From positions 2,272,501-2,336,500 of the forward strand of contig JAJFZO010000896.1 of assembly GCA_021397835.1 (NCBI GenBank): a DNA stretch of 64,000 bases, read 5' to 3'. Every line of letters starts with the position of its first letter. Positions within the stretch are counted from its first letter, which is position 1. Shown one piece after another: positions 3,606 to 47,130 of the stretch. Origin of the DNA: Moringa oleifera. Taxonomy: Eukaryota; Streptophyta; Magnoliopsida; Brassicales; Moringaceae. Position numbers and translations under genes: made by a program. Below the pieces are notes generated by a model, which did no database searches, had not been told where the DNA came from, and worked only from the letters and a program-made list of their open reading frames with translations.

Positions 3606-3608
3606 ATC
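3606..3608 (+). repeat. CACTA target-site duplication, left (ATC)
   Basis: ATC directly precedes the left terminus and is repeated at 17379-17381 after the right terminus. Three base pairs is the standard duplication for CACTA elements. Confidence 0.85.
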
Positions 3609-3621
3609 TACTACAACAAAA
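3609..3621 (+). repeat. CACTA left terminal inverted repeat
   Basis: TACTACAACAAAA; pairs with the right end with two mismatches. The first base is T where the family has C, which may impair excision. Confidence 0.85.
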
Positions 3622-3650
3622 TAACCTTTTATTCATAGACTTTTAATGGC

Positions 3651-4242
3651 TTTTGTTCACAGTTGTAAAATGTGGACTATGTCGATGTGAACAAAAGTTA
3701 GTAAAAATAGATCACAGTTCTAAAACTGTGAATAAATCTGAATTCAGTTCACATTTCATTAATGTTTTGTTCACAATTATAGAACTGTGAATAAAACTAT
3801 ATTAGTTCACAGTTCACTAATGTTTTGTTCACAGTCATAGAGCTGTGAATAAAACTATATCAATTCACAATTCATTAATATTTTGTTCATAGTTATAGAA
3901 CTGTGAATAAAACTATATTAGTTCACAGTTCATTAAGGTTTTATTCACAGTTATAAAACTGTGAATAAAAGTTTGAATACCACACTTTAATTCACAGTTC
4001 AATAAATTTTTGTTCACAGTTCTAAAACTATGAATAAACCCACATTAGTTCACAATTCACAAAAGTTTTATTCACAGTTCTAAAACTGTGAATAAAACTC
4101 TCTACAATCATTTAATTTTTATTCACAGTTCTTAAACTATGAATAAAACAACATTAGTTCGTAGTTTATTAATGTTTTATTCACAGTTCTAGAACTGTGA
4201 ATAAAACCAATGTAGTTCACAGTTCGAAAACTGTGAATAAAA
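3651..4242. repeat. Left subterminal palindromic repeat array
   Basis: About ten units of roughly 55-60 bp, each holding a small palindrome of the form TTCACAGTTctaAAACTGTGAA followed by TAAAA. Inter-unit parts (gttcattaatgtttt, ctatatta) are also partly repeated. The same motif recurs at the right end. In En/Spm elements, short subterminal repeats bind the element-encoded TNPA-type protein and bring the ends together; by analogy these are the likely transposase binding sites. Confidence 0.9.
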
Positions 4243-4986
4243 TTATTACTTTTAATTTACTGATTTTTTTAAAATTAAAAAAATCAAAAATCTAATTGAT
4301 AAATAATTAAAAATTTAAATTACTATTTAATTTTTTTGTTTTTAACATATAATAATTTAAATTGAATCATTATTTAATTTTTAATAATCTTAATTCTTAA
4401 TTATAATTCATATTTTTAATTATTATTTGATTACTTTTTTTTTCAAAATCAAAATTTTTTGTTTACGAATTCACATTTTTCTATTTACCTAAAATTAAAA
4501 TTTGAAAATATACAAAAAATTTTGCATATAATTAAAAAGTAAACCATCACAAATGATTTTAATACTACTACTACACTTTAATAAAATGTAACACACTACC
4601 ACCACTTTTTTAACCAAAAAGTACTTTAATAGTACTCACACACTTTATTGCAATCTTACACCACCACCATACCTTAATACAATATGAGACCACCATTACT
4701 TCATTAATTCACAATATATTTTAATCCAATGTAGCACACATTCATGATCACTTCTTTTATAATAATATATTTCAATATAACACATATTGATTACCATTTC
4801 GAAACAATAGTGAATCATAATTCTCATCTATATAACCTTCCAACTATGTATGAAACGCATGGAGAAAAATTAATTTATAAATTAAAAGTTAAAAGGCAAA
4901 TACTTACAATTCCTAACTACTATATAATGTATTCCAAAATTTGAAATATAAGTCCTATATTTTTACCTGAATCCTATTATAATACT
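4243..4986. other. AT-rich spacer between subterminal repeats and the second CACTA gene
   Basis: No coding signal. Very AT-rich, with scattered caccacc and taataa runs. It would be the 3' flank of the minus-strand gene ending at 4987; no clear polyadenylation structure was identified. Confidence 0.6.
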
Positions 4987-7522
4987 TCATATATATTGCC
5001 AAAACTCTTGTCTGACATCATCAAGCTCAGACTGACTGTAGGTATCAATATCCATTAGCTATGCATGTGAAAAATATAAAAGTTAGTACAATTATAATTT
5101 CAATATTATACACAACATTTTACAGAAACAAATTATTTAAAAACTTATTATTTTCGAGTGTGGTGCATCATTGTTATATCTGTTAATGATATCCCTCATA
5201 TATTTCATCACATAATATCCACACTCATGGTTAAAAAGTTGACGTGGATAACATTAGTAATTTAGATGTTACATTTTGTGACTAAAGATAATGAAATTTA
5301 ATGTAACATATGGTCCATAATATACACACCTTAGAATAAAATACATACACAATGTAAGCTTGAATGATAGTAACACTTATCTCTTTCATGTGACAAAATT
5401 GTATTATATCTTCTCGCATCACATATATGGAGCCCTTATTAGCAAATACCTCTTTTTGCAAAGGAATGGTGATGACTCCATCATGATCCATTACCTATGT
5501 GACATGCTCATGCATGCTCATACCTTCAGTGATAATGGCAACCCAATAAAAGACAATTGCTGCAATGATGGTTGTTTCATCAATGTTGATGCTCGTCTAA
5601 CTTACAATTTTTGCATCTTTCCTCTATTCATTGACTAGAAATAAAATAGTTAAGAAGTCATGTCCAATAAATAACCAAAAAAAATTTCAACTTTTGACAT
5701 AAAATACCTCACATTCACGTGTGATGACCCAATCTCGTGGCCAAGCAACATGTGTGCTAACTGCTTCAAATACAGTAAAAATTTCTGCTCCTACTATTGG
5801 GTGAGGCAAACGAGCATTGCCCCGAATAGCTACATCCACTATCGCCCTAACATCTCCATTGAGCAGAGGATGCTCATGGATAGTTTGATTCATGGTAGTA
5901 TCTATGAAAACTGATCCATGGGCCACGATATCCTCCAAAGAACCAATGTACAAATCGCATTGTATACATTACAATGAATAATCAAAGCACAATTTAATGT
6001 CTCAAAACTTTAATTTTTTTCTTTAATAGAAATATAACATGTGACATACCTTACTACCAGATGGTGTAGGCTTCGACGGACCAACTAGTGAAGGTTCAGG
6101 AGGCGATGTCGGACTTTTTTCATTATCGTCTATTCCAGCCATGTTGTTGCTAGCTCTACTTGAATGAAATGGCATTTGAATGATGTTCGGTTAGGTAGTA
6201 ACTCTGTCTAACATAATATGATCTAAAACATCTTTATGTTGCGCGAACCACTTCATCATGTTCATAAAACCTTGTTTATCATATGGTGCTTCATTTATTG
6301 GTACGATATATGTTTTCATCCTCCCAAAATACGAGGTTATAGTTACCCCAGATCCCTGACCTCTAACACGACCAGGATGTTCAGGTGTGCCTAAACCTTT
6401 TGTGAGGACATCATTCACATATACTGGTTTAAATGTACCTTGACTCTCCTGTGTCATCAACTCATCCTACAAAGTCAGAATGCAATTGTTACATAAATGT
6501 GACATTTGAATAAATACAAATCAAATGGAAGTAAAGACTTATCAAATACGTATAATCCTTTCACCACACTTTTTGGTCGCTTCATTTGTGTATCGTCCTT
6601 GTTTGTTACATCTTGCTGCTTTCCATAATGTAGCATGATCAATTTCTTCCTCAGTACCCAATGACTTCTTCTACAAGCAATCATACAAAAACATTTAATG
6701 TAGTTAATTAAAGTAAACAAAATGGATCCAGCACATGTTAAAAAATTTATGCAAAAAAAAAAACCAAAACATAATTGACTTACAAGTTCGATCTCTATCC
6801 CTGCAAATCCTTTTCGAGCAAGATGATGATCATATGTATTTTTCTTTCTTCTCTCTATTGCAACAATTCTCTTTCGCTATAATATAAACGAATATCAATC
6901 TTTAGTGAAAGTTTCACAAATAAACATCTCTATTTGGTTAATGTAATACTTGAAACTCCTCTGAAAGGTAAGAGTTCACAAATGCATGCCAGACATCTAA
7001 ATCTATGAAACTCCTATATTCTGCTGGTGGCAGCCTTAAGTATTCTAGGTTATCCATAAAAGGCAAGATGTATTTCCTCATAAGAATGGTTTTGAAGCTT
7101 CACCATTTTTGTGCAGCAGATTGGAGTATAGACATTTTCAAAGTTACATCAATGTCATATGTCCCCTATAAAACACATTTACAAAAATCAATGAAAACAA
7201 ATCATAAGCATATAATTCAATTTTCAATGTAAGCACTTGCATATTTTATAACATGTACTGAAATTGTTTCCCAAATCTTATTCTTTAACTCCTCTGAGAC
7301 AACATGCCAATTGTTAAGTGTAATAGGCACTGTATGTCGCACAATGACACTAATATAACTGTTCATCGTTGCACCATGCTTTCCGATTGGCTATCCTTGC
7401 TCATTTAATTGGACTGATATTTTCTGTCCCATTGATCTACACTTAATGACATCAGGCACAGTGTTAATGCCTCGTTTTTTGCATTTCTGTGAGGCATGAT
7501 CGGGTTGATCTGATGGACCCAT
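4987..7522 (-). pseudogene. CACTA second gene: Ptta/En-Spm transposase (Transposase_24) with Ulp1-like C-terminus, broken
   Basis: The likely start is ATG at 7522 (MGPSDQPDHASQKCKKRG). Next comes a Transposase_24-like region with GKHGATMNSYISVIVRHTVP and a W-containing helix near 7290, then WHAFVNSYLSEEF near 6980. Further on are a basic block (RKRIVAIERRKK, about 6870), the typical GTPEHPGRVRGQG motif near 6380, and AVSTHVAWPRDWV near 5740. The C-terminus resembles a C48/Ulp1 cysteine protease: ITIPLQKEVF and REDIIQFCHM (about 5390-5470), then ECGYYVMKYM with the expected catalytic Cys near 5230, ending SELDDVRQEFWQYI at a stop at 4987. Only about 160 bp separate the FCHM and CGYY motifs, too little for the His/Asp part, so the protease is probably dead. 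Stops such as CGA-to-TGA are present. Several introns are likely but not fully mapped. Fusion of these domains is known in plant CACTA elements. Confidence 0.8.
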
Positions 7523-7685
7523 TAAATCTGTAAATTAAATACTAATAAATTAACAATACATATTCATAAAAACATATAAAGTTAAAAGTCAATGAAAACT
7601 AACATGTAAAAACTTACTTCATAAAAAAAATAGAATTAAAAAATTATAAGACATATGTAAAGTTTAACATTACCTATCATATTAG

Positions 7686-10600
7686 TTAAACCAACAATCT
7701 TTCACCATCTTCCCTAGCATATGTAACTGCATTGTCGTCTATTTGATCGAAGAGTTCAACAGATGGTAAATTATTACAAAAAGGCATATGATCTAGACTA
7801 ATGTCACCCAAATCATCTTCTTCATCAAAGTCTTTTCGAGGTGTTGACATTACAAGTGACCATTTTATATCAATTGGATCTTCAACATAAAATACTTCTC
7901 TCACTTGTGAAGCTAGTATAAATTGATCATTTTTATGCCCAATCCAATTAAGATCAACAAGGATAACTCCTAGATCATAAACTTTAACACCATGACTATT
8001 CTCAATCCAATCACATTTAAAAACTAGGACTCTAAATAAAGTGTAATCTAGCTCCCATATCTCTTATATTACCCCACAAAATACCATGTCACCATATACT
8101 GGATTTTTATCTTTTGCACTCGAAATTTGCATGTTATTAGCAATTAAAGTGACTCCACTATTTTGGTGCACTCTTGAGTTGTCTCTTTCTTTTGTATAAA
8201 AACGACAACCATTAATGATGTATCCAGGATACTTGATTACTGTGACTTGAGGTCCATGAGCAATCCATTGTAAAGTTGACGAGATATTATGATTAGACGA
8301 TGAAAGTTGATACCCAACCTACAATAAATAATTTATTAGATCAACCATTATGGACACATATAACTAAATGGTGGACTTGTAAAGATTCTTACCCGTGTGC
8401 GCAACCAATTGATGAAGGTGCAATTATGCTCATCATGCAACCACTTTCATCTTTTTGACTTCATGGGATTCTCAACAGTTAATTGGTTTAAATGCTCGCT
8501 GCATGATAAGAACAATTCATGTAAACAATTAAAATTGTCTTTGATGTGTTATAATAAATGGGTTATAAATATTACCTTATGTAAGGTTGAATTTCACTTA
8601 TATTCATCAAAACATATAAATGAGCTTATTGAAGAAAATCATAGGGAACTTGTTCAATCCATCCACCAGCTAAAGGTCTTCCGTTTTGGGTTGAATAATC
8701 AAATACATTCTTCCTTAGACGAATCCCAACAGAATCTGTATTCAATAAATAATCTACATAAAATTTTAGTGCCTCCTCTGTAATGTATGATTCAGCGATA
8801 CATCCCTCAGGCTTGTTACGATTACGAACATAACCCTTCAACACCTTCATGTATCTTTCAAATGGGTACATTCACCTCGAATATATAGGACCACATAGTT
8901 TTACTTCTCTAACTAGGTGAACAGTTAAATAAACCATAACATCAAAGAAGCTAGGAGGAAAGTACTTTTCTAGTACACATAGTGTTGTCACAAGTTCACG
9001 TTGGATGTCATCTAACTTAGAAATATCTACCACCTTTTGGCATAACAAATTGAAGAACATGCAAAGTCTAATTAAAGCATATCTGACATGTTTCGGTAAC
9101 ACTGCTCGTAGAGCAACAGGTAAGAGTTGTTGCATTAAAGTGTGACAATCATGCGACTTTAACCCATATAGATTTAAGTCATCCATAGAAACAAGATTTT
9201 TGATATTTGAAGAATACCCATCTGGCACCTTAATCTCACTGAGCACTTTACAAAATCTCCTTCTTTCATCTCTCGACAATGTATAACATGCATGTGGTAA
9301 AAATGTACGATTATTGTGATGTTGTGGTACCAATTCATACCTTAATCCCATTTCTTGCAGATCCATTCTAGCTGCTACCCCATCCTTTGATTTTTCCGCA
9401 ATATTAAGCAATGTGCTTACAAGACTATCACATACGTTCTTTTCTATATGCATAACATCAAGCATATGTTTGACATGTAAGGACTTCCAGTATGGTAAGT
9501 TAAAGAAAATTGATCTCTTCTTCCAACATTGTGAAACCACATCTTCATTATTTCGTTGATGTTGTTTTTTTGACTTCCCCCATGAATTTGATAAACTTTA
9601 AACCTTAGAGAAAACCTCTTCACTAGTTAATGGTTATGGAACAACTCTGAATTCCTTGTTCCCCATTAAAAGCTTTCTTTTGTTTACGATAAGGATGATG
9701 TCGTGGTAAAAATCTTCTATGTCCAATATATGAAATTTTTTTACTATGCTGCAAACGAACTGCATTAGTATTCTCAACACATATAGGACAAGCATTGTAA
9801 CCTTTAACTGTACAACCAGATAAATTACCATAAGTAGGAAAATCATTAATTATCCACAGCAAAATAGCTCTCAAGTTGAACGATTCTTTTTGGTACGCGT
9901 CATAAACTTCCACGCCAGTGTCCTATAATATCTGTAAGTTTTTTATGAGTGGTGCCAAGTAAATGTCTATATCATTACCAGGTTGTTTAGGGCTTGATAT
10001 TAATAGTGTTAACATCATGAACTTTCTCTTTATTGTTAACCATAGTGGTAAATTATATGTCACTATAACAACTGGCCAATAACTATATCGACTATTTAAT
10101 GTACTATGAGGATTAATCCCATCAGCTAAAATAGCAAGCGTTAAGTTTCTTGGTTCTGCTGCAAATTTTGGCCACATATAGTCAACTATTTTCCATGATG
10201 GTGTATCTGATGGATGCCTCAACTAGCCATCAACTTCTTTTTGACTAGAATGCCATGCCAGATGTTTTGATGTTTTAAAGCTTCTAAATATTCTTTTAAA
10301 CCTAGGTATTGGTGAAAAATACCATAACACCTTAACCGACACCTCGGTCTGTATCTTGTTACTATTCTTCATTATTTTCCATCGAGAAAGACCACAAGTC
10401 GGACACTGAATCTCATTTTGAATTTCGATATAATATGCAATCATTTAGACATGCATGGATCTTGTGATACTCCATGCCTAATGCATTTAATGTTTTTTTT
10501 TGGCATCATTCATAGATGTAGGCATTTTATTATACTCTGACAATATTTCAGATATCAAATTTAAAAGTTCATTGAAGCTCTAGTCAGACCAATTGCACTT

Positions 10601-11055
10601 CGCCTTTAAATTGTAAAGTTTAACTAGAGCAGAGAGTTTAGTGAACTTTGTTGATCCAAAATACAAAGGTTTCTCAGCATCACTAAGTAACTTCATGAAT
10701 TGGTTAGCATTACCATTGTACTCTACAAATGCATCTTAAACCATCTCTGCAGTGTTATTAACTTCTTCCTCTTGGACAACCTCCTTATTAGCTGTAGCAT
10801 TTCGACTTGTAGAAGACCCATCAAGACATGCTTCCCCATGCCATATCCAATTATTGTAACTTCGATCAACTCCATTAACAAATAAATGATCTTGTATCTC
10901 ACGTGGAGTTAGACGTTTCATATTACCACATTTAATGCACGGACAACAAACATGCTCAAGATTATCAGAATTTCGAATGGCATATTTCAAGAAATTAGTT
11001 ACACCTATATCGTACTTATCGACCTTCTATTAGCGAACATCCAAGTCTTGTCCAT
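7686..11055 (-). pseudogene. TNP2-type CACTA transposase, broken
   Basis: The catalytic gene of the element. The start is ATG at 11055 (MDKTWMFANRRS), the classic TNP2 N-terminus. Then come a Transpos_assoc-like zinc motif CCPCIKCGN and NNWIWHGE (10990-10820); CPTCGLSRWK and KVLWYFSPIPR (10444-10300); the Transposase_21 core with PGNDIDIYLAPLI and FNLRAILLWIINDFPTY (10222-9830); and VKHMLDVMHIEKNV (about 9450). The DUF4218 part has LKSHDCHTLMQQLLPVALR and EKYFPPSFFDVMV, continuing into MYPFERYMKVLKGYV (8871). The DUF4216 part has FKCDWI and QVREVFYVEDP (8000-7880), ending at 7686. Two small introns fit GT-AG: 8499-8575 and 8319-8392. Damage: a frameshift just after the start, one near 9660, and in-frame stops where the family has Trp or Gln (9920, 8872, about 8625, about 8070). 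Family identity is secure; function is lost. Confidence 0.92.
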
Positions 11056-13080
11056 TCTAATATTTAACACATCATATGTTAACACATTAACTTGTTTTTA
11101 TCAATGTATATATATGCATGTCAACCAATTTTTACAGGTAGGATGATCCTATGCCATTCAGAAATGCAACATCTATGTGGAGCACATGATAAATCATGCT
11201 TCATTTAATTTCAAAAAAAATTCAACAGCATAACCCTGTAGTTCTTCAAGTACATGACTTATGTAGATATTTTTTAGTGTTTTTTTCTTCAAATCAAAAC
11301 ACCTATAAATGTCCACTAGTATGTACTCGAAGAACAAAGGATATGTTACTCGAAATTCATTATGAAATAAAATGAATCAAGATTTATACACCATGTGCAA
11401 TACATGAATATTGCATTTATAAACTATCTAAACTGGACAATTAAAGAATTACAAATGAAAATTTTTATTTAATCCACATGTTATACACGTGGATTATAAT
11501 AAAATATTCATTTATAATTCTAAAACGGTATCTAAGTCTATATTTACTAAGCATAATGTGCTAATATTATACACATAAATGGATTTTTTTTACTAATTGG
11601 TGAAATAAATTTTAAATGTAAAATTGAAGAAGTATAACTTAAATTTATATTAAATTAAAAAATCAATTAAATAAAATTTTGTAAAAAAATAATGCTTACC
11701 TTGATGATGATTCCCCTATTAGCTTGCAATACTATATTCTCCTGCAAAAACACAAATCATGTTTCAAATAAAAATTTTGCTGATTAACTTATTATTAATC
11801 ACAATTACCAAATTTTTTAAGTTGTCAACTTTTTTAGGAAAAAATGAATATTCAAAAAATTAAAAATAAAAGATGAACTTACTATATAAACCCACTTCTA
11901 AAGACCTTCGAATTAATCATAATCTGAAAAAAAAAATATTTGTTAAAGTATCTGCAAGACTTTTGTCAATGACACACTAAACTATATTTACTAACAAAAC
12001 TCTAAATGAAATCAAATAATTAATAATATTATCCACATATTGCAATTATGATCAGACTAAATTTAAATTTTTATTATATAAACAAAAAATAATGAAATCT
12101 AATATTTTAATAATGTTAGTCTTGGGCTTCTGCCCATATGAAATTAGGGATCATATAATAATCTCCTCTATTGAAATAAATTTTTCAAATTTGGTCAATA
12201 TCATTACCAATTTTATTTTTTATTTAATGATGATCATTGTAGATATTATTACTATTTCATTTTTAATAATCGTTACAAAAATACAAATACAATTATAAAA
12301 TCTCATAAAATTAAATGATTAAAATATTTTAATTAATATCTTAATTTCATTTAATTATTACTTTTTAATTGTAATAATCAAATAGCACACAAATGATATG
12401 AAACAACAAATAACCAATCATCATTTCACATAAAGTCTTTAGATAAATTTGTAAATCTTTATAATCTATAAGTTATGAGACGTTTTAATTTGTTATAATC
12501 AATAATTATAATAATTAATTTAAATCCCATCTTATACTTCTTTTGTGTTGTTAAAAACTTTTTCTCATGCTACCATTATTCATGAAAAATAATATCGATT
12601 GGGATATTTTTCTTTCTTATGGTGACATTTGATTTTTCAATGTCATAGTATAAAGTTACTCAAGATACTGGAAAAATATTTGTATAGGAACAAGTAGATC
12701 GATGCAATTTTGTATTTATATATAAACAAAAAGTAAATAACTTGAAAATAAAGATATAAAAAGTTACAGATTCTTCCTCCTTGATTGTTACATACAATAC
12801 TATTATTTGCTCAATACTTTACTTATAACATAATCCTGAATATTAAACCATGAGTATTTCATTCGTCTTTTACTTTAGATAATGATTTATCTCATGCTTT
12901 AATTTAGGCTGCATGATAGTTCGCTTGCTATTAAAAATTTCTCGAAAAGCAAACTTAAATCAAGGTCCACAAAGCTCCTTTTTGGTCATATTTGCTGGAG
13001 AAGAGCCATGCCAATAGCTGGAAAAGAACAAAAAAACATAAAAGCTGATACTAATAAAGAGAAAAAAAGTAATTATAAAT
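11056..13080. other. AT-rich upstream region of the CACTA transposase
   Basis: Two kilobases with no recognisable coding sequence on either strand, dominated by AT-rich sequence. As the transposase is read leftward, this is where its promoter, 5' UTR or a first intron would lie. A plus-strand ORF at 12092-12298 has only hydrophobic low-complexity content and is not supported as a gene. Confidence 0.5.
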
Positions 13081-13117
13081 TAGGGAGAAAAGATTAATCT
13101 TACCAAAACTAAAAAGA
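13081..13117 (+). repeat. Direct repeat flanking the minisatellite, left copy
   Basis: tagggagaaaagattaatct-type sequence followed by taccaaaact; a near copy lies at 14444-14478 on the other side of the minisatellite. On the minus strand each reads as an exon end followed by a possible GT donor (ttggtaag). Confidence 0.6.
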
Positions 13118-13144
13118 TATTTTAATTAGCTAGATCTAAAAGCC

Positions 13145-14345
13145 GGATAAAAGTAAAACCACATCTTCCTTTGTTGCAATCAGTGAAGGCCAACATTTTG
13201 ATCTGTTAGATCTGGAACCTCGATGGAAGTAGAACCATGTCCAGATCTGTAAAACCTCGCACCCAAGTTTAAAACCCTCATCACAAATCTAGAACTCCCA
13301 ACATAAATCTAAAATCCCTAACCCAGATGTGAAACCACGATACAAGTAGAACCACGCCTAAATCTAGAATATCGATGGAAGTAGAAACTCGCACCCATAT
13401 CTAGAATCCCCAGCACAGGTTTGGAATCTGTAGGCCAAATTTAAAATCTTGAACCCAAATTTTGAACCTTCAAGCTCTGAAATCCTAACCAATATCTGGA
13501 ATCTCTAGCCCAAATCTAAAACCTTGCACCCATATATGGAAATCCTAGTATATGTCCAAAATCTCAACCAAGATCTAGAATACCTAGCCAAAATCTAAAA
13601 CCCCGAACCCATATTTAGAACATCTGGCATAGATTTTAAATTCTAACCCAGATTAAAAACCTCATACCCAAATTTGGAACTCCCAGCACATATCTGAAAT
13701 CCCTATGAAGATATCAAATTCCTAGCCTATATCTAAAGCCCTGCAGATAGTTTTATAATCCCCAGTATAGATCTGAAATAGGACTTCAGATTTAGAATCT
13801 TTAACCTAGATCTGAAGTCGTGCACCTAGATTTGGAACCTTTAACATAGATGTGGAATCTAGAGCCCCGAGCTAAAACCCCTACCCAGATCTGGAACCTT
13901 CAGACCCCTCACCTAGATTTGGAATCCTCAGTCTAGATCTAGAGCCCCTTAGCCAGATCTGGAACCCCCAGACCCCTCACTCAGATCTGGAACCTCCAGC
14001 CTAAATCTGGAACCTCCAGCCTAGATCTAAAACCCTTCACCCAGATCTGGAACCCTAGACCCTTTACCCAATCTGGAACGCCAGCCCAGATCTGGAACCT
14101 TTCACCCAGATCCAGAACTCTCAACCTAGATCTAGAACCCCAGCCTAGATCTGGAACCCCTCTCACCCAGATCCAAAACTCTTAGCCTATATCTGGAACC
14201 CCTTACCCAGGAACTCTCATCCCATATTCGGGACCCCATACATCTAAATCTGGGATTTTAACAAATATTTTGAACCTCAAAATAGATCTAAAATCCTAAT
14301 GAAAATGAAACCATGCACATATTTAGAATCCTAATGGAAGGAGAA
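13145..14345. repeat. Degenerate AGATCTGGAACC minisatellite
   Basis: About 1.2 kb made of 27-35-bp units built from two half-units around cccAGATCTGGAACCcc. Units are most regular at about 13860-14170 and more diverged toward both edges, a pattern expected when slippage and homogenisation act in the middle. A minus-strand ORF in the regular part (13981-14166; repeated PDLG and RFQIW) is produced by the repeat and is not a gene. Tandem blocks are common inside CACTA elements. Confidence 0.85.
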
Positions 14346-14443
14346 CCACATCCGAATTTGAGCTTAAAAATAATGAAACTAAAAGCCAAAAATCAAGGAA
14401 CAATAATTTCTGCATTTTAACAAAAAAAATGAGCATAATATTT

Positions 14444-14478
14444 TGGGAGAAAGGATTAAACTTACCAAAAAAAAAGAG
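14444..14478 (+). repeat. Direct repeat flanking the minisatellite, right copy
   Basis: tgggagaaaggattaaactt followed by accaaaaa; partner of the copy at 13081. The spacing of about 1.36 kb suggests the minisatellite grew within a duplicated segment. Confidence 0.6.
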
Positions 14479-14716
14479 AGGAGATTCAAGCTGCCAGTTG
14501 TGGAACCCAAAAGGAAGCAACACTGCACACATTCTTAATCCCTTCGATGTAAATAGTTAGGACCGATCGAATGTTCGGTTTGCACATCTACAACCCGGAG
14601 AGGCTCTCCTCATAGTGTAAACTTCATACCTGAAGAATCAAAGTTTATCTTTGAGTAATTGGAGAAAATGAATGAATGAATGAATTTTTTCGATGTTTCT
14701 GGAGAAGATGCAAGGC

Positions 14717-14790
14717 TTTTACTCACAGTTACAGCCATCACTGTGAATAAAACCCTTTTATTCACAGTTATGGCTGTAACTGTGAGTAAA
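14717..14790. repeat. Internal copy of the CACTA subterminal repeat
   Basis: Two palindromic units (ACTCACAGTTacagccatCACTGTGAATAAAA and ATTCACAGTTatggctgtAACTGTGAGTAAA, given here in parts) match the right-end array at 17148-17342, including the tGAGTAAA variant. It lies 2.6 kb inside the right terminus, just beyond the captured AGAMOUS segment. Confidence 0.8.
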
Positions 14791-15112
14791 GGTTGGTGCC
14801 TTTATTCACTCACTGCTCGCTCGCTCCTTCATTCACTTGCACATGAATTCACAGCTTCACCAGAAAAAGAATTAAAGCACGCGAGAGAAGAGGGAGGGCT
14901 AAGGAAGGTCGACTATAACTTTAGCGTGCTAGTGGTGGGCGTGCCCTTTATCCATAGTTATGGCTGGTGCCTTTATTCACTCACTGCTCGTTGGCTCCTT
15001 CATTCACTTGTACATGAATTCGCAGCTTCACCAGAAAAAGAAAGCGCACGAGAGAAAGGGGAGGGCTGAGGAAGGCCGACTGTAACTTCGGCTTGCTAGT
15101 GGTGGGCGTGCG
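14766..15112 (+). repeat. GC-richer tandem duplication, unit about 165-190 bp
   Basis: Unit 1 (about 14766-14950) and unit 2 (about 14956-15112) share ggtgcctttattcactcact, ccttcattcacttg and gctagtggtgggcgtgc with small indels and substitutions. The block is richer in G+C than its surroundings. An ORF runs through it (14680-15069) whose peptide repeats CLYSLTAR and HEFTASPEKE, but this is probably chance openness caused by the duplication. It could be a promoter or first-exon region of the element; I do not recognise a protein. Confidence 0.7.
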
Positions 15113-16119
15113 TGAGCATCCCTTTCCTTCTACTGCTGTGAGGTGGCAGAGGGATTTGCTTTTTATATATGTTTTCATCACCTTCTGGAGAGGGCATGAC
15201 TTTCATCTAAATAAGCTACACAATGTACACATGTACTTGTTACCACTTATATAATTCAAGCCTAATTCCCATGTATTTTCACAAGTTGAACATATTAAGC
15301 ATATTAACCATGTTTCTGACCGATTATTAATTAAGTAGCAGTGAAACATGGAAAAATAGGTTAAGTTTTCAAGGGGAAGGACATCATGCTAAACTTCAAG
15401 CAATTCTGCCCCACTGTTGGTCCCTGCCTCCCAAGCTTTGTCAAGGGAACACCTACAGAGAGTACATATCTTGTTTACAGCTTCATTAATTAAACCTGGA
15501 GCATTGGATCCTCTTAATTTGTTTGGAATGAATTCATGGTTTGGCTTAATTTTACAGCACATCTCCAATTGGATTTACTTCTTTATAATTGCAGAAGATC
15601 AGTTTGAATACCATAAATTTATGATCTTCTAGTTTCGTATACAAATTGATGTACAACTGCCATGAGACAGTGATGAAAATGTCTCTGTAAGCAGCTTAGA
15701 AAGAAGTAGAAGCATGCAAATCTGGGTCTTAAACAGTCCAAAGAGTCACTGTGTAATGACAAAGTAGCAAGCCTTTAGATAATTAAACAAAGTTGATTTA
15801 TGATTTGTAGAGGACACCCTATAGCTATGGTCTGGTCAAATACTAAATACCTTTTAGAGAAACTAGCAACAGCAGTACCAGATCATCCTTCAACCACATT
15901 AGCTTCACACAAAGAGAAGAAACTATTAGATATCTCAAAGTTATCTGAATTCAATGTTTTATCTACATAAAAGGCTTATAAAGGCTTTAGATACTTGAGT
16001 TGAACTGAAAGTAATATTCAATCCCAGAGGCTATTTACAGGAATCTTAAACAATTTAGAGAATCTGAAGTTATATTAACATTCTTTTGACATAATTATGT
16101 AGATGGTAATTTGTGGGAC
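15113..16119 (-). other. Probable 3' flank of the captured AGAMOUS segment
   Basis: Follows the stop codon of the AGAMOUS-type last exon on the minus strand and has the texture of plant intron or 3' UTR: unique, T-rich on the minus strand, without TE motifs. The stop lies inside GTAAGT, so a further intron may begin at 16123, as some AG genes have an intron at or after the last codon. A short open stretch on the minus strand near 15376-15540 (EAVNKICTLCRCSLDKAWE) is unrecognised. Extent of the captured DNA to the left is uncertain. Confidence 0.45.
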
Positions 16120-16301
16120 TTACACTAACTGAAAGGTCATCTGATCCTGGCATGAGTAGTGATGATTTGTGGGTTATAATGCACTGCCTTGAAAAAAGTT
16201 CCTGAAATCAAAGGGTTGAGACTAAATGACCTCATAGTTAATTACCTCATCTTGGCATCAAGTTCATGTTTTGCTGGTTCGTCTCATTCTCAGATATCTG
16301 C

Positions 16302-16324
16302 TTATATATATATATATATATACA
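16302..16324. repeat. (TA)n microsatellite in the AG-type intron
   Basis: About 22 bp of TA just upstream (minus strand) of the last AG-type exon, next to its acceptor site. Confidence 0.9.
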
Positions 16325-16658
16325 TATCCATCAAAAAATCACCAAAAGATGCAGAAACAGAGAAGAAAGAGAGGGAGAAGGAGGGAGAGAGTACCTTTGC
16401 TCGAAGAAGCTGGTTATTATTATGCAAGTTAATTTCTTGCAAGGCACCTGTGAATGGTTTGAATGAGATAGAAAGAAAACATTTACAAGTTATCTTCTAC
16501 ATATGGAGTTCACATTAAACAAGTAGTGGAAGTCCCAATTTACAAGAAAAGAGCTAATTTACAAGATGTAGGGGAAACATTAAATAAAGAGGCAAAAATG
16601 GCATTAGCGCGCATATCATTGTTGTCCTTCCTGGTCTTCGTCATAGTTGAATTATTAA

Positions 16659-16736
16659 AAACTGTAATGGCTTTAAGGCACCAACTGGAAACAACTTTTC
16701 TAACAAATGAAACTGTAATGGCTTTAAGGCATCAAC
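16659..16736 (+). repeat. Short direct repeat in the AG-type intron
   Basis: aactgtaatggctttaaggc occurs twice about 51 bp apart (near 16660 and 16711), a small tandem duplication within the captured intron. Confidence 0.75.
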
Positions 16737-17147
16737 ATTTCAAATGCCCAAGAAAGGTTAAGTAACCACGTGATCATCCAACGAGGTTTATCTTAATTAT
16801 GATTAAGTGGATGAAAAGCTTCAATGCATGCAGTCACATGATCTAGCTGATTTGATTATAAGCACTGCTGGTAATAAGTGGCCACTAATTTTCTAATTCA
16901 GACCTGAAGCTACTGAAGTGATTTTCAATGGCAGAATTAATAGAAACTCAATATGCTTGTTTAAACTATGCTACCATATTAGAAATTTAAGGGGATTATG
17001 AGCATAGAGTTACCCTCTTCTGCATGTACTCGATTTTGGCAAACAACAGCTCATTCTGGTTCAGAAGGGGGTTGAAAAAGCGAAAGAAGAAAAGAAAGGA
17101 AGATCTGTAACAGGGGCGAAAAAATCCAATGGTGAACAAAGCTCTCT

Positions 17148-17342
17148 TTTGTTCACAGTTATAAACATAACTGTGAATAAAAGTTTTTTTTTTAATTCAC
17201 AGTTATAAGCATAACTGTGAACATAAATGTTTTTATTCACAGTTTTAATAACAACTGTGAGTAAAAAAAACCTTTGTTCACAGTTTTGTTACAACTGTGA
17301 ACAAAAATTCTTTTATTCACAGTTGTTATTAAAACTGTGAAC
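17148..17342. repeat. Right subterminal palindromic repeat array
   Basis: Five palindromic units of the form TTCACAGTT(..)AACTGTGAA within 200 bp, matching the left array at 3651-4242. The captured AG-type intron ends within about 20 bp of its first unit, so the capture breakpoint is near 17130-17147. Confidence 0.9.
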
Positions 17343-17365
17343 TATTTAGTGTGAAATAATCTCGT

Positions 17366-17378
17366 TTTTCTTGTAGTG
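17366..17378 (-). repeat. CACTA right terminal inverted repeat
   Basis: Read on the minus strand: CACTACAAGAAAA, the canonical plant CACTA terminus, intact. Confidence 0.93.
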
Positions 17379-17381
17379 ATC
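17379..17381 (+). repeat. CACTA target-site duplication, right (ATC)
   Basis: Matches ATC at 3606-3608. Confidence 0.85.
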
Positions 17382-45949: not shown

Positions 45950-47130
45950 AGATGGGTGATTTGCTACAAAAGTTTCATTTTCCTTCTTATCCATGATCTT
46001 CAAGTCAAATTCTTACAAAACGATGATCCATCTGATAAGTCTTAGCTTAGCATCATGCTTTGTAACCAAGTATTTGATTACAGAATGTTTATGTAGACTA
46101 TCACATTTGACCCAGTTAAATAGAACTTGAACTTGTCAAATGCAAAACACCATTGCTAGCAATTCATTTTTTTGTGGTTATATAATTAAGTTACGTATCA
46201 AACATTGTGCCACTTGCATAGTAGATCACATGTAACTTTTTATCCATTCTTTGCCCCAACTTTACTCCAGAAGCATAATTGCTTATGTCACACATGAGCT
46301 CAAATTATAGTGTCCAATCAAGTGTCATAATGATTAAAGCTCATATGAGCTCCTTCTTCAACCTATCAAAGGCAATAAGATATTCATTAGTAAAATTGAA
46401 AGGAACATATTTTACTAATAAAGTACGCAAAGGTTTAGTGATTTTGGAGAATTTTTTTATGAATCTTCTATAGAATCGAGCATGTCTTAGAAAACTTCTC
46501 ACTCTTTTGACAGATGATAGAGGTAATAGCTTTTTTATTACCTTATCTTTGCCATATCCACTTAATTTCATTGGCCAAAATTTTATGGTCAAGTACTATA
46601 CCTTCCTTCACCATGAAGTGACACTTTTCCCCATTAGGTACTAGATTAGTTTTCCTGCATCTTTGAAGCAGTAAATCAATGTTAGATAAAATATGATAAA
46701 AACTAAACCAAAAACAAAAGAAATCATCCATAAATACCTGTATGCATTCTCTACCATGTCACTGAATATGGTCATCATACAATGTTGAGATGTAACTAGT
46801 GTATTACAAAGAACAAAAGGCATTCACTTATAGGTAAATTGCCATAAAACAGGTAAAGGTGGTCTTTTCTTAGTCCTTATGTGCCATTAGTATCTGATTA
46901 TATCTAGAATAACCTTCTAAAAAACAATAATGGGAATGTTAAGTTAGCCTTTCTAACATTAAATCAATAAAAGGCAAGGAAAAATGCTTTTCTCAAGTGG
47001 CTTTATTTAATTTCCTATAATCTATGCACACTCGATGACTTGTAATAGTTCTAGTGGAAATTAATTCATTATTTTCATTTTTGATCACTGTCATCCCACC
47101 TTTCTTAAGAACTACTTGTACTAGATTAAT
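45950..47130 (-). pseudogene. Athila reverse transcriptase and RNase H pseudogene (element G)
   Basis: RT: VLKKGGMTVIKNENNELIST and VCIDYRKLNKAT (47120-46990), LPFIDLMLERL, then MPFVLCNTLVTSQHCMM (46823) and FMDDF at the catalytic site (about 46733), EKCHFMVKEGIVLDHKI (46640-46590), SVKRVRSFLRHARFYRRFI (46510-46450). RNase H: MCDISNYASGVKLGQRMDKK (about 46300-46240) and LHVIYYAS. The order and wording are those of the Athila lineage. There are several frameshifts between these blocks. Confidence 0.85.

Follow-up and report, generated by a model that had tools for sequence, protein, structure and literature searches.

An AGAMOUS genomic segment carried and multiplied by CACTA elements in Moringa oleifera

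The window analysed here, a stretch of 64,000 nucleotides in a 279.5 Mb assembly of Moringa oleifera, contains exons of an AGAMOUS-type (AG) MADS-box gene close to one end of a CACTA transposon. This raises the question of whether these exons belong to the chromosome or to the element, and, in the latter case, from which gene and by which route they were taken up. It is very probable that a CACTA family which carried a piece of a 3-ketoacyl-CoA synthase gene (KCS/FAE1) gained about 2.15 kb of AG genomic DNA, and that deletion, spread and decay followed.

The CACTA element and its AGAMOUS exons

The element around the exons (Table 1) has four traits of the CACTA superfamily: a terminal inverted motif, a 3-bp TSD, subterminal repeats, and a Tnp2-type transposase, which stops or frame changes have broken into PF02992, PF13963, PF13960 and PF13952 pieces. 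The element has its 5' end at 17378, and the AG segment is placed between this end and the transposase, which is read on the same (minus) strand as the AG exons. The 3' terminal motif reads CACTACAACAAAAT, CACTACAATAAAAT or CATTACAACAAAAT in related copies, with a CACTA or CATTA start in relatives. The rule for Pack-TYPE elements given in PMC8903248 (no transposase match, host coding sequence between the terminal inverted repeats) is not followed by the window element, as its transposase is present; under that rule it is autonomous or autonomous-derived. The definition of Pack-CACTA/Pack-TYPE elements in the same source does fit short derivatives of about 2.2 kb on C517 and at C25:7.92 Mb, which show no match to the window's transposase. 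The window element is dead, encoding neither a working transposase nor an AG protein.

Beside the captured region lies a direct repeat of about 160 bp (14785-14944 and 14956-15111), which is matched in relatives too. Outside the element, a Pfam scan of six of the 16 longest listed open frames had no match at E<=0.01, and the same holds for one scanned open frame inside it. At 46344-46595, an open frame resembles a piece of a retrotransposon polyprotein by eye, with no Pfam match at this threshold.

Translation and alignment place three AG exons on the minus strand, in order and with their introns, at 16120-17055, which is to the base the extent given in the original prediction. This prediction had also put the exons between CACTA termini, in agreement with the ends found at 3609 and 17378, each flanked by ATC, and had assigned them to the AG lineage. 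The assignment is supported by the peptide assembled from the window exons, for which AGAMOUS (8cra, E=2.1e-10, query residues 1-33) is the sole PDB match at E<=10, so that no non-MADS family matches better there. This match and the colinear DNA alignment to an intact AG gene (Table 1) show that the likeness is not accidental. The Pfam K-box match of this peptide is below threshold (E=0.0077, 16.8 bits, cut-off 30), and the other Pfam matches are weaker and unrelated. Of the traits of the lineage, the two 42-bp exons are found in both the donor gene described below (42, 42) and the window (42, 42), and the C-terminal part of the K domain and the C region match AG. The MADS domain is absent from the captured segment, which begins at the end of exon 2, and present in the donor. 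The window copy is a gene fragment and no gene: stop codons, a last exon lengthened by a 4-bp insertion, and an exon-6 acceptor changed from AG to AA bear out the decay that had been predicted for it.

Table 1. Features of the CACTA element in the window and of the AG segment within it
Feature	Position	Strand	Basis or remark
Left 3-bp TSD, ATC	3606..3608	.	matches 17379-17381
CACTA (En/Spm) element, 13,770 bp	3609..17378	-	terminal motifs, TSD, subterminal repeats, transposase domains
3' terminal motif TACTACAACAAAAT	3609..3622	.	first base T, not C
Subterminal repeats, TCACAGTT...AACTGTGA units	3712..4225	.	sequence repeats
Transposase piece, DUF4216	7689..8063	-	Pfam PF13952, E=5.3e-16
Transposase pieces, DUF4218, stop-broken	8629..9597	-	Pfam PF13960, E=3.1e-17 and 6.3e-15
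Transposase core, Transposase_21 (tnp2), stop-broken	9626..10222	-	Pfam PF02992, E=6.6e-40 and 4.4e-36
Transposase-associated domain	10739..11026	-	Pfam PF13963, E=3.4e-19
Degenerate tandem array, ~20-bp units, inside the element	13262..14202	.	matched in related copies
Subterminal-type repeats (14710-14785), then two-copy direct repeat	14710..15111	.	sequence
Element segment 3' of the AG insertion	15112..15722	-	found in AG-free relatives too
Captured AGAMOUS genomic segment	15723..17108	-	donor C533:4308649-4307252; colinear, 91.2% identity
AG last exon (donor exon 7, MADS exon = 1)	16120..16297	-	NQQNMNLMP, SQPFD, RNFFQ and NHHYSCQDQMTFQLV, split across two frames; 4-bp insertion and stops
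AG exon 6, 42 bp	16395..16436	-	encodes EINLHNNNQLLRAK (translation, alignment); acceptor AG to AA
AG exon 5, 42 bp	17014..17055	-	encodes NELLFAKIEYMQKR (translation, alignment); 1 difference from donor (E to K)
Deletion junction	17108..17109	.	lacks, compared with C566, donor 4308650-4309399 and ~650 bp of element that includes the KCS fragment
5' subterminal repeats	17132..17342	.	sequence repeats
5' terminal motif CACTACAAGAAAAA (reverse complement)	17365..17378	-	sequence
Right 3-bp TSD, ATC	17379..17381	.	sequence

Donor gene, captured interval and spread

An intact AG gene lies on the minus strand of another contig, C533. Its seven exons have gt/ag borders and, once joined, form a 245-residue open frame that includes MADS, K and C regions; the first exon is cut at its acceptor, and this length may not reflect the actual start of the gene. 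Among the best 120 matches of its protein the nearest are AGAMOUS-type proteins of rosids, with 86% identity in Herrania and Jatropha, and Arabidopsis AGAMOUS is included at 74%; the named proteins are mostly AGAMOUS or AG-like, the remainder hypothetical. A tree of the donor and these 120 listed matches resolves no more than a rosid-like position for the donor, with Arabidopsis and Camelina as its sister (support 0.87), and the nearest proteins by distance are those of Theobroma, Herrania, Cephalotus and Hevea.

The window segment is colinear with this gene through exons and introns over 1,415 columns. Within the 20 kb fetched around the donor, neither a CACTA terminus nor a transposase was found. 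An uninterrupted AG gene at the window locus would have spoken against capture; the host gene is instead found elsewhere. The search of the host genome for a donor locus and the alignment of the retained introns, both proposed with the original prediction, thus support its view that genomic DNA of an AG gene was transduced.

The capture was larger than the window suggests. An element on C566 contains the donor interval 4309399-4307252 (2,148 bp) whole, colinear and with introns at 93.8% identity; the stretch starts with about 21 bp from exon 2, covers exons 3-7 and ends 398 bp into the 3' flank, with outer limits accurate to a few bases. A second element with both capture ends, C532b (C532:3.16 Mb), has lost the middle of this segment and retains positions 1-32 and 1360-2148. 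In the window copy, as in 12 of the other 14 AG-bearing places that were fetched, AG begins within five bases of segment position 751. The window retains three exons because the deletion at 17108 removed the upstream part of AG. The prediction that the last three exons had been captured therefore describes what is present in the window and falls short of the original capture, which extended from the tail of exon 2 into the 3' flank.

The captured piece is not confined to the window locus and has multiplied in the genome. A 34-base pattern on the donor-site region of exon 5, searched with three mismatches allowed, occurs at 88 places, 47 of them exact including the donor itself. One deletion derivative, marked by a 28-base pattern across its CACTA/AG deletion junction, has spread to 75 places, the window among them and the donor not; the reversed controls of both patterns gave 0. 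Counts from the DNA searches of the genome other than these two patterns are lower bounds, as 40 candidates were scored of 130, 122 and 94. Besides the window, a right terminus is found in 13 of the 14 fetched AG-bearing places and was not found in the one on C24. In six of the seven elements with both ends read the TSDs match (window ATC, C566 GAA, C573 CTA, C518 TTA, C517 AAC, C25:8.86 Mb AAC), which represents five distinct insertions; in the seventh, at C25:7.92 Mb, the TSD is off by one base. Common flanks identify the elements on C517, at C25:8.86 Mb and at C25:7.92 Mb as one duplicated insertion.

The outside flanks of the short elements L043:3304-5577, L044:2666-4900 and L021 (C517 and the two on C25) are alike, as if duplicated together with their surroundings. 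Another short AG-bearing element, C584:28183-28668 (L049), differs little from the donor in exons 5 and 6 and at the splice sites of both. The short group of the C584 type, numerous and similar, may have been recently active.

These findings bear on the alternative that a CACTA element inserted in or beside a resident AG gene or pseudogene, which would make the exons chromosomal, as their position near an element end could be taken to mean. This is extremely improbable, since the AG segment lies between subterminal repeats and within TSD-flanked ends, a terminus accompanies nearly all other fetched AG-bearing places with TSDs that differ where they could be read, and one and the same junction is repeated at 75 places. 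Insertion into a resident gene was rejected, since the TSD is located beyond the AG segment and the junction recurs.

AG-free elements and the capture junctions

Relatives without AG probably display the site as it was before the capture. Among the 40 candidates scored of 122, at least eight places contain the element segment without AG and align unbroken across the site: C49 (the query), C18, C517, C566:259571, two on C25, C2 and C563. Seven of these eight were fetched and show GCATGCAGACTTG at the site, with two changes at most. The occupied site in the C566 element and C532b reads GCATGCAGA-TC-TGGGTC...(AG)...TTCT-AC-ACTTGAAA, which corresponds to about 2 bp of filler, no loss of element DNA and a target duplication of 0-1 bp. 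The junction sequences contain no terminal repeats at the ends of the AG insert.

Adjoining the site, AG-free elements have 650 bp whose encoded piece matches FAE1/KCS (PF08392, E=4.7e-11, tested on the letters of C566), and C49 encodes a piece related to that of C566. This piece has 57 matching places in the genome at E<=1. In 22 of them the match lies in an open frame of more than 200 residues and begins only at residue 15 of the piece, as expected of genuine KCS genes; these long frames match residues 15-45 at up to 84%. As the piece is present in elements without AG, the family held host DNA before AG arrived, and AG entered beside it. Within the family, the KCS fragment was located at L029:9076-9726 and L045:5254-5906; it is deleted from the window copy.

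A tree of the flanking element segment groups six of the seven AG-free copies together, and likewise the seven AG copies that bear the deletion. C49, which is AG-free, stands in between with C566 and C532b, and the tree does not separate it from these two copies with both capture ends; support is mostly low. The tree agrees with a single gain of AG without proving it, and the shared junctions carry most of the weight.

One could suppose from the clean appearance of the insertion that AG was first carried by a Helitron or a Pack-MULE which then jumped into a CACTA element. Helitrons have TC...CTRR ends and insert between A and T. The insert here ends in CTAC, unlike this rule, its ends have no terminal inverted repeats and no clear target duplication (0-1 bp), and the CACTA terminus found in 13 of the 14 fetched AG-bearing places besides the window also speaks against another carrier, which is thus highly improbable. 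Both candidate carriers were rejected on the junction sequence.

A different route is in print for the CACTA superfamily: the model put forward for Pack-CACTA elements of Arabidopsis, as presented in a 2026 review (PMC13317346), is the fusion of tandem elements by aberrant excision. Applied to this family, two neighbouring elements flanking AG would have fused and enclosed it. This is very unlikely, as the fusion predicts terminal deletions in both elements, whereas here the element continues on both sides without loss, just as in its AG-free relatives. Judged by their sequence, the junctions are better explained by end joining that took in a copied insert than by a fusion of two elements, because the terminal deletions that a fusion should leave are not seen.

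The preferred course, capture by a CACTA family that already had its KCS/FAE1 piece, would then be as follows. The 5' region of the family would have gained, most simply at a single stroke, about 2.15 kb of AG, from the end of exon 2 to the 3' flank with introns. For this step the evidence is in the junctions, which suggest that a double-strand break inside an element was closed by end joining that incorporated a copied stretch of AG; the copying may have been synthesis-dependent or due to template switching, either of which would leave the donor intact. A later deletion removed the upstream AG exons together with the KCS piece, and transposase supplied in trans would have multiplied the resulting version, with further internal deletions. 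The copies would finally have been methylated, silenced and left to decay with the AG piece as a passenger.

Decay, possible function and significance

The changes in the copies point to such an end. Over 14 copies compared with the donor, C-to-T or G-to-A changes affect 59 of 280 CG, 156 of 1104 CHG and 284 of 4107 CHH sites, the copies being related and hence these counts not independent, while the opposite transitions affect 114 of 8960 A/T sites. The order CG>CHG>CHH is that of the decay of methylated cytosines, and this C-to-T pattern is the reason to regard the copies as probably methylated and silenced. At sites covered by six or more copies, 19 differ from the donor in at least 80% of copies and may be changes of the donor, so that all divergence figures mix change in the donor after the capture with change in the copies. 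Exons are more diverged than introns and flanks in 11 of 14 copies (7.0% versus 5.5% in the window), which makes a coding function of the AG copies unlikely. The three exceptions, C566 (3.9% versus 5.2%), C86 (4.7% versus 5.2%) and C82 (5.7% versus 5.8%), would be compatible with weak past constraint on the exons. In the element on C566, the fullest capture, in-frame stops interrupt exons 3 and 7.

A function other than coding could be imagined, with the AG piece kept as a putative source of siRNA on AG, as a silencing decoy, or for exons that are spliced into host transcripts. The piece is in sense orientation with the transposase, the donor-site region of exon 5 is unchanged over 34 bp in many copies (47 of 88, donor included), and exons are the less diverged part in the three copies named above; captured genes act as siRNA reservoirs in maize (PMC13317346), and the fragments in soybean Tgm-Express1 are spliced into transcripts (PMC1947982). 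Retention for function is nevertheless unlikely: the other 11 copies show no exon conservation, the C566 copy has stops, the window copy has stops and a broken splice acceptor, and recent spread accounts for the similarity among the short copies.

The capture of host genes by CACTA elements is a known process, and what distinguishes this event is that it is unusually well resolved and that the gene involved adds value. According to PMC1947982, the soybean element Tgm-Express1 likewise contains exonic and intronic pieces of host genes, but these come from five other genes; the element, 5.7 kb long and described as made up of host gene fragments, lies within intron 2 of a pigment gene, and its fragments enter transcripts by splicing. 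In Chenopodium, CACTA elements carry a floral gene piece in the same position, upstream of the transposase in a 5' region noted as a capture site (PMC8978399); this APETALA2 fragment is 80 bp long, whereas the Moringa capture is 2.15 kb with introns, a donor, AG-free elements and junctions. Transduplication by Cactavine-5 of grapevine likewise involves host coding and 3' untranslated sequence, of another gene and in two reported copies (PMC2528002). The matches listed in the literature searched included no case of a CACTA element that had captured AG. The Tpn1 family of morning glory also consists of CACTA elements with captured host segments, the captured gene there being other than AG.

The abstract of PMC1947982 called the mechanism by which CACTA elements pick up genes poorly known in 2007. 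Since this one genome still has the donor, elements without AG, the full capture and its deletion derivatives, the junctions can be read and mechanisms become testable. AGAMOUS is central to floral regulation, and visible effects follow when it is lost or silenced; because of this the consequences of its capture, such as small RNAs and the spread of methylation, are testable as well. It is improbable that the multiplied segment gives rise, throughout the genome, to small RNAs directed at the plant's own C-function gene, in an epigenetic conflict that could be a cause of floral variation in this lineage. If so, methylation would silence the elements and yet risk silencing AG, a floral homeotic gene.
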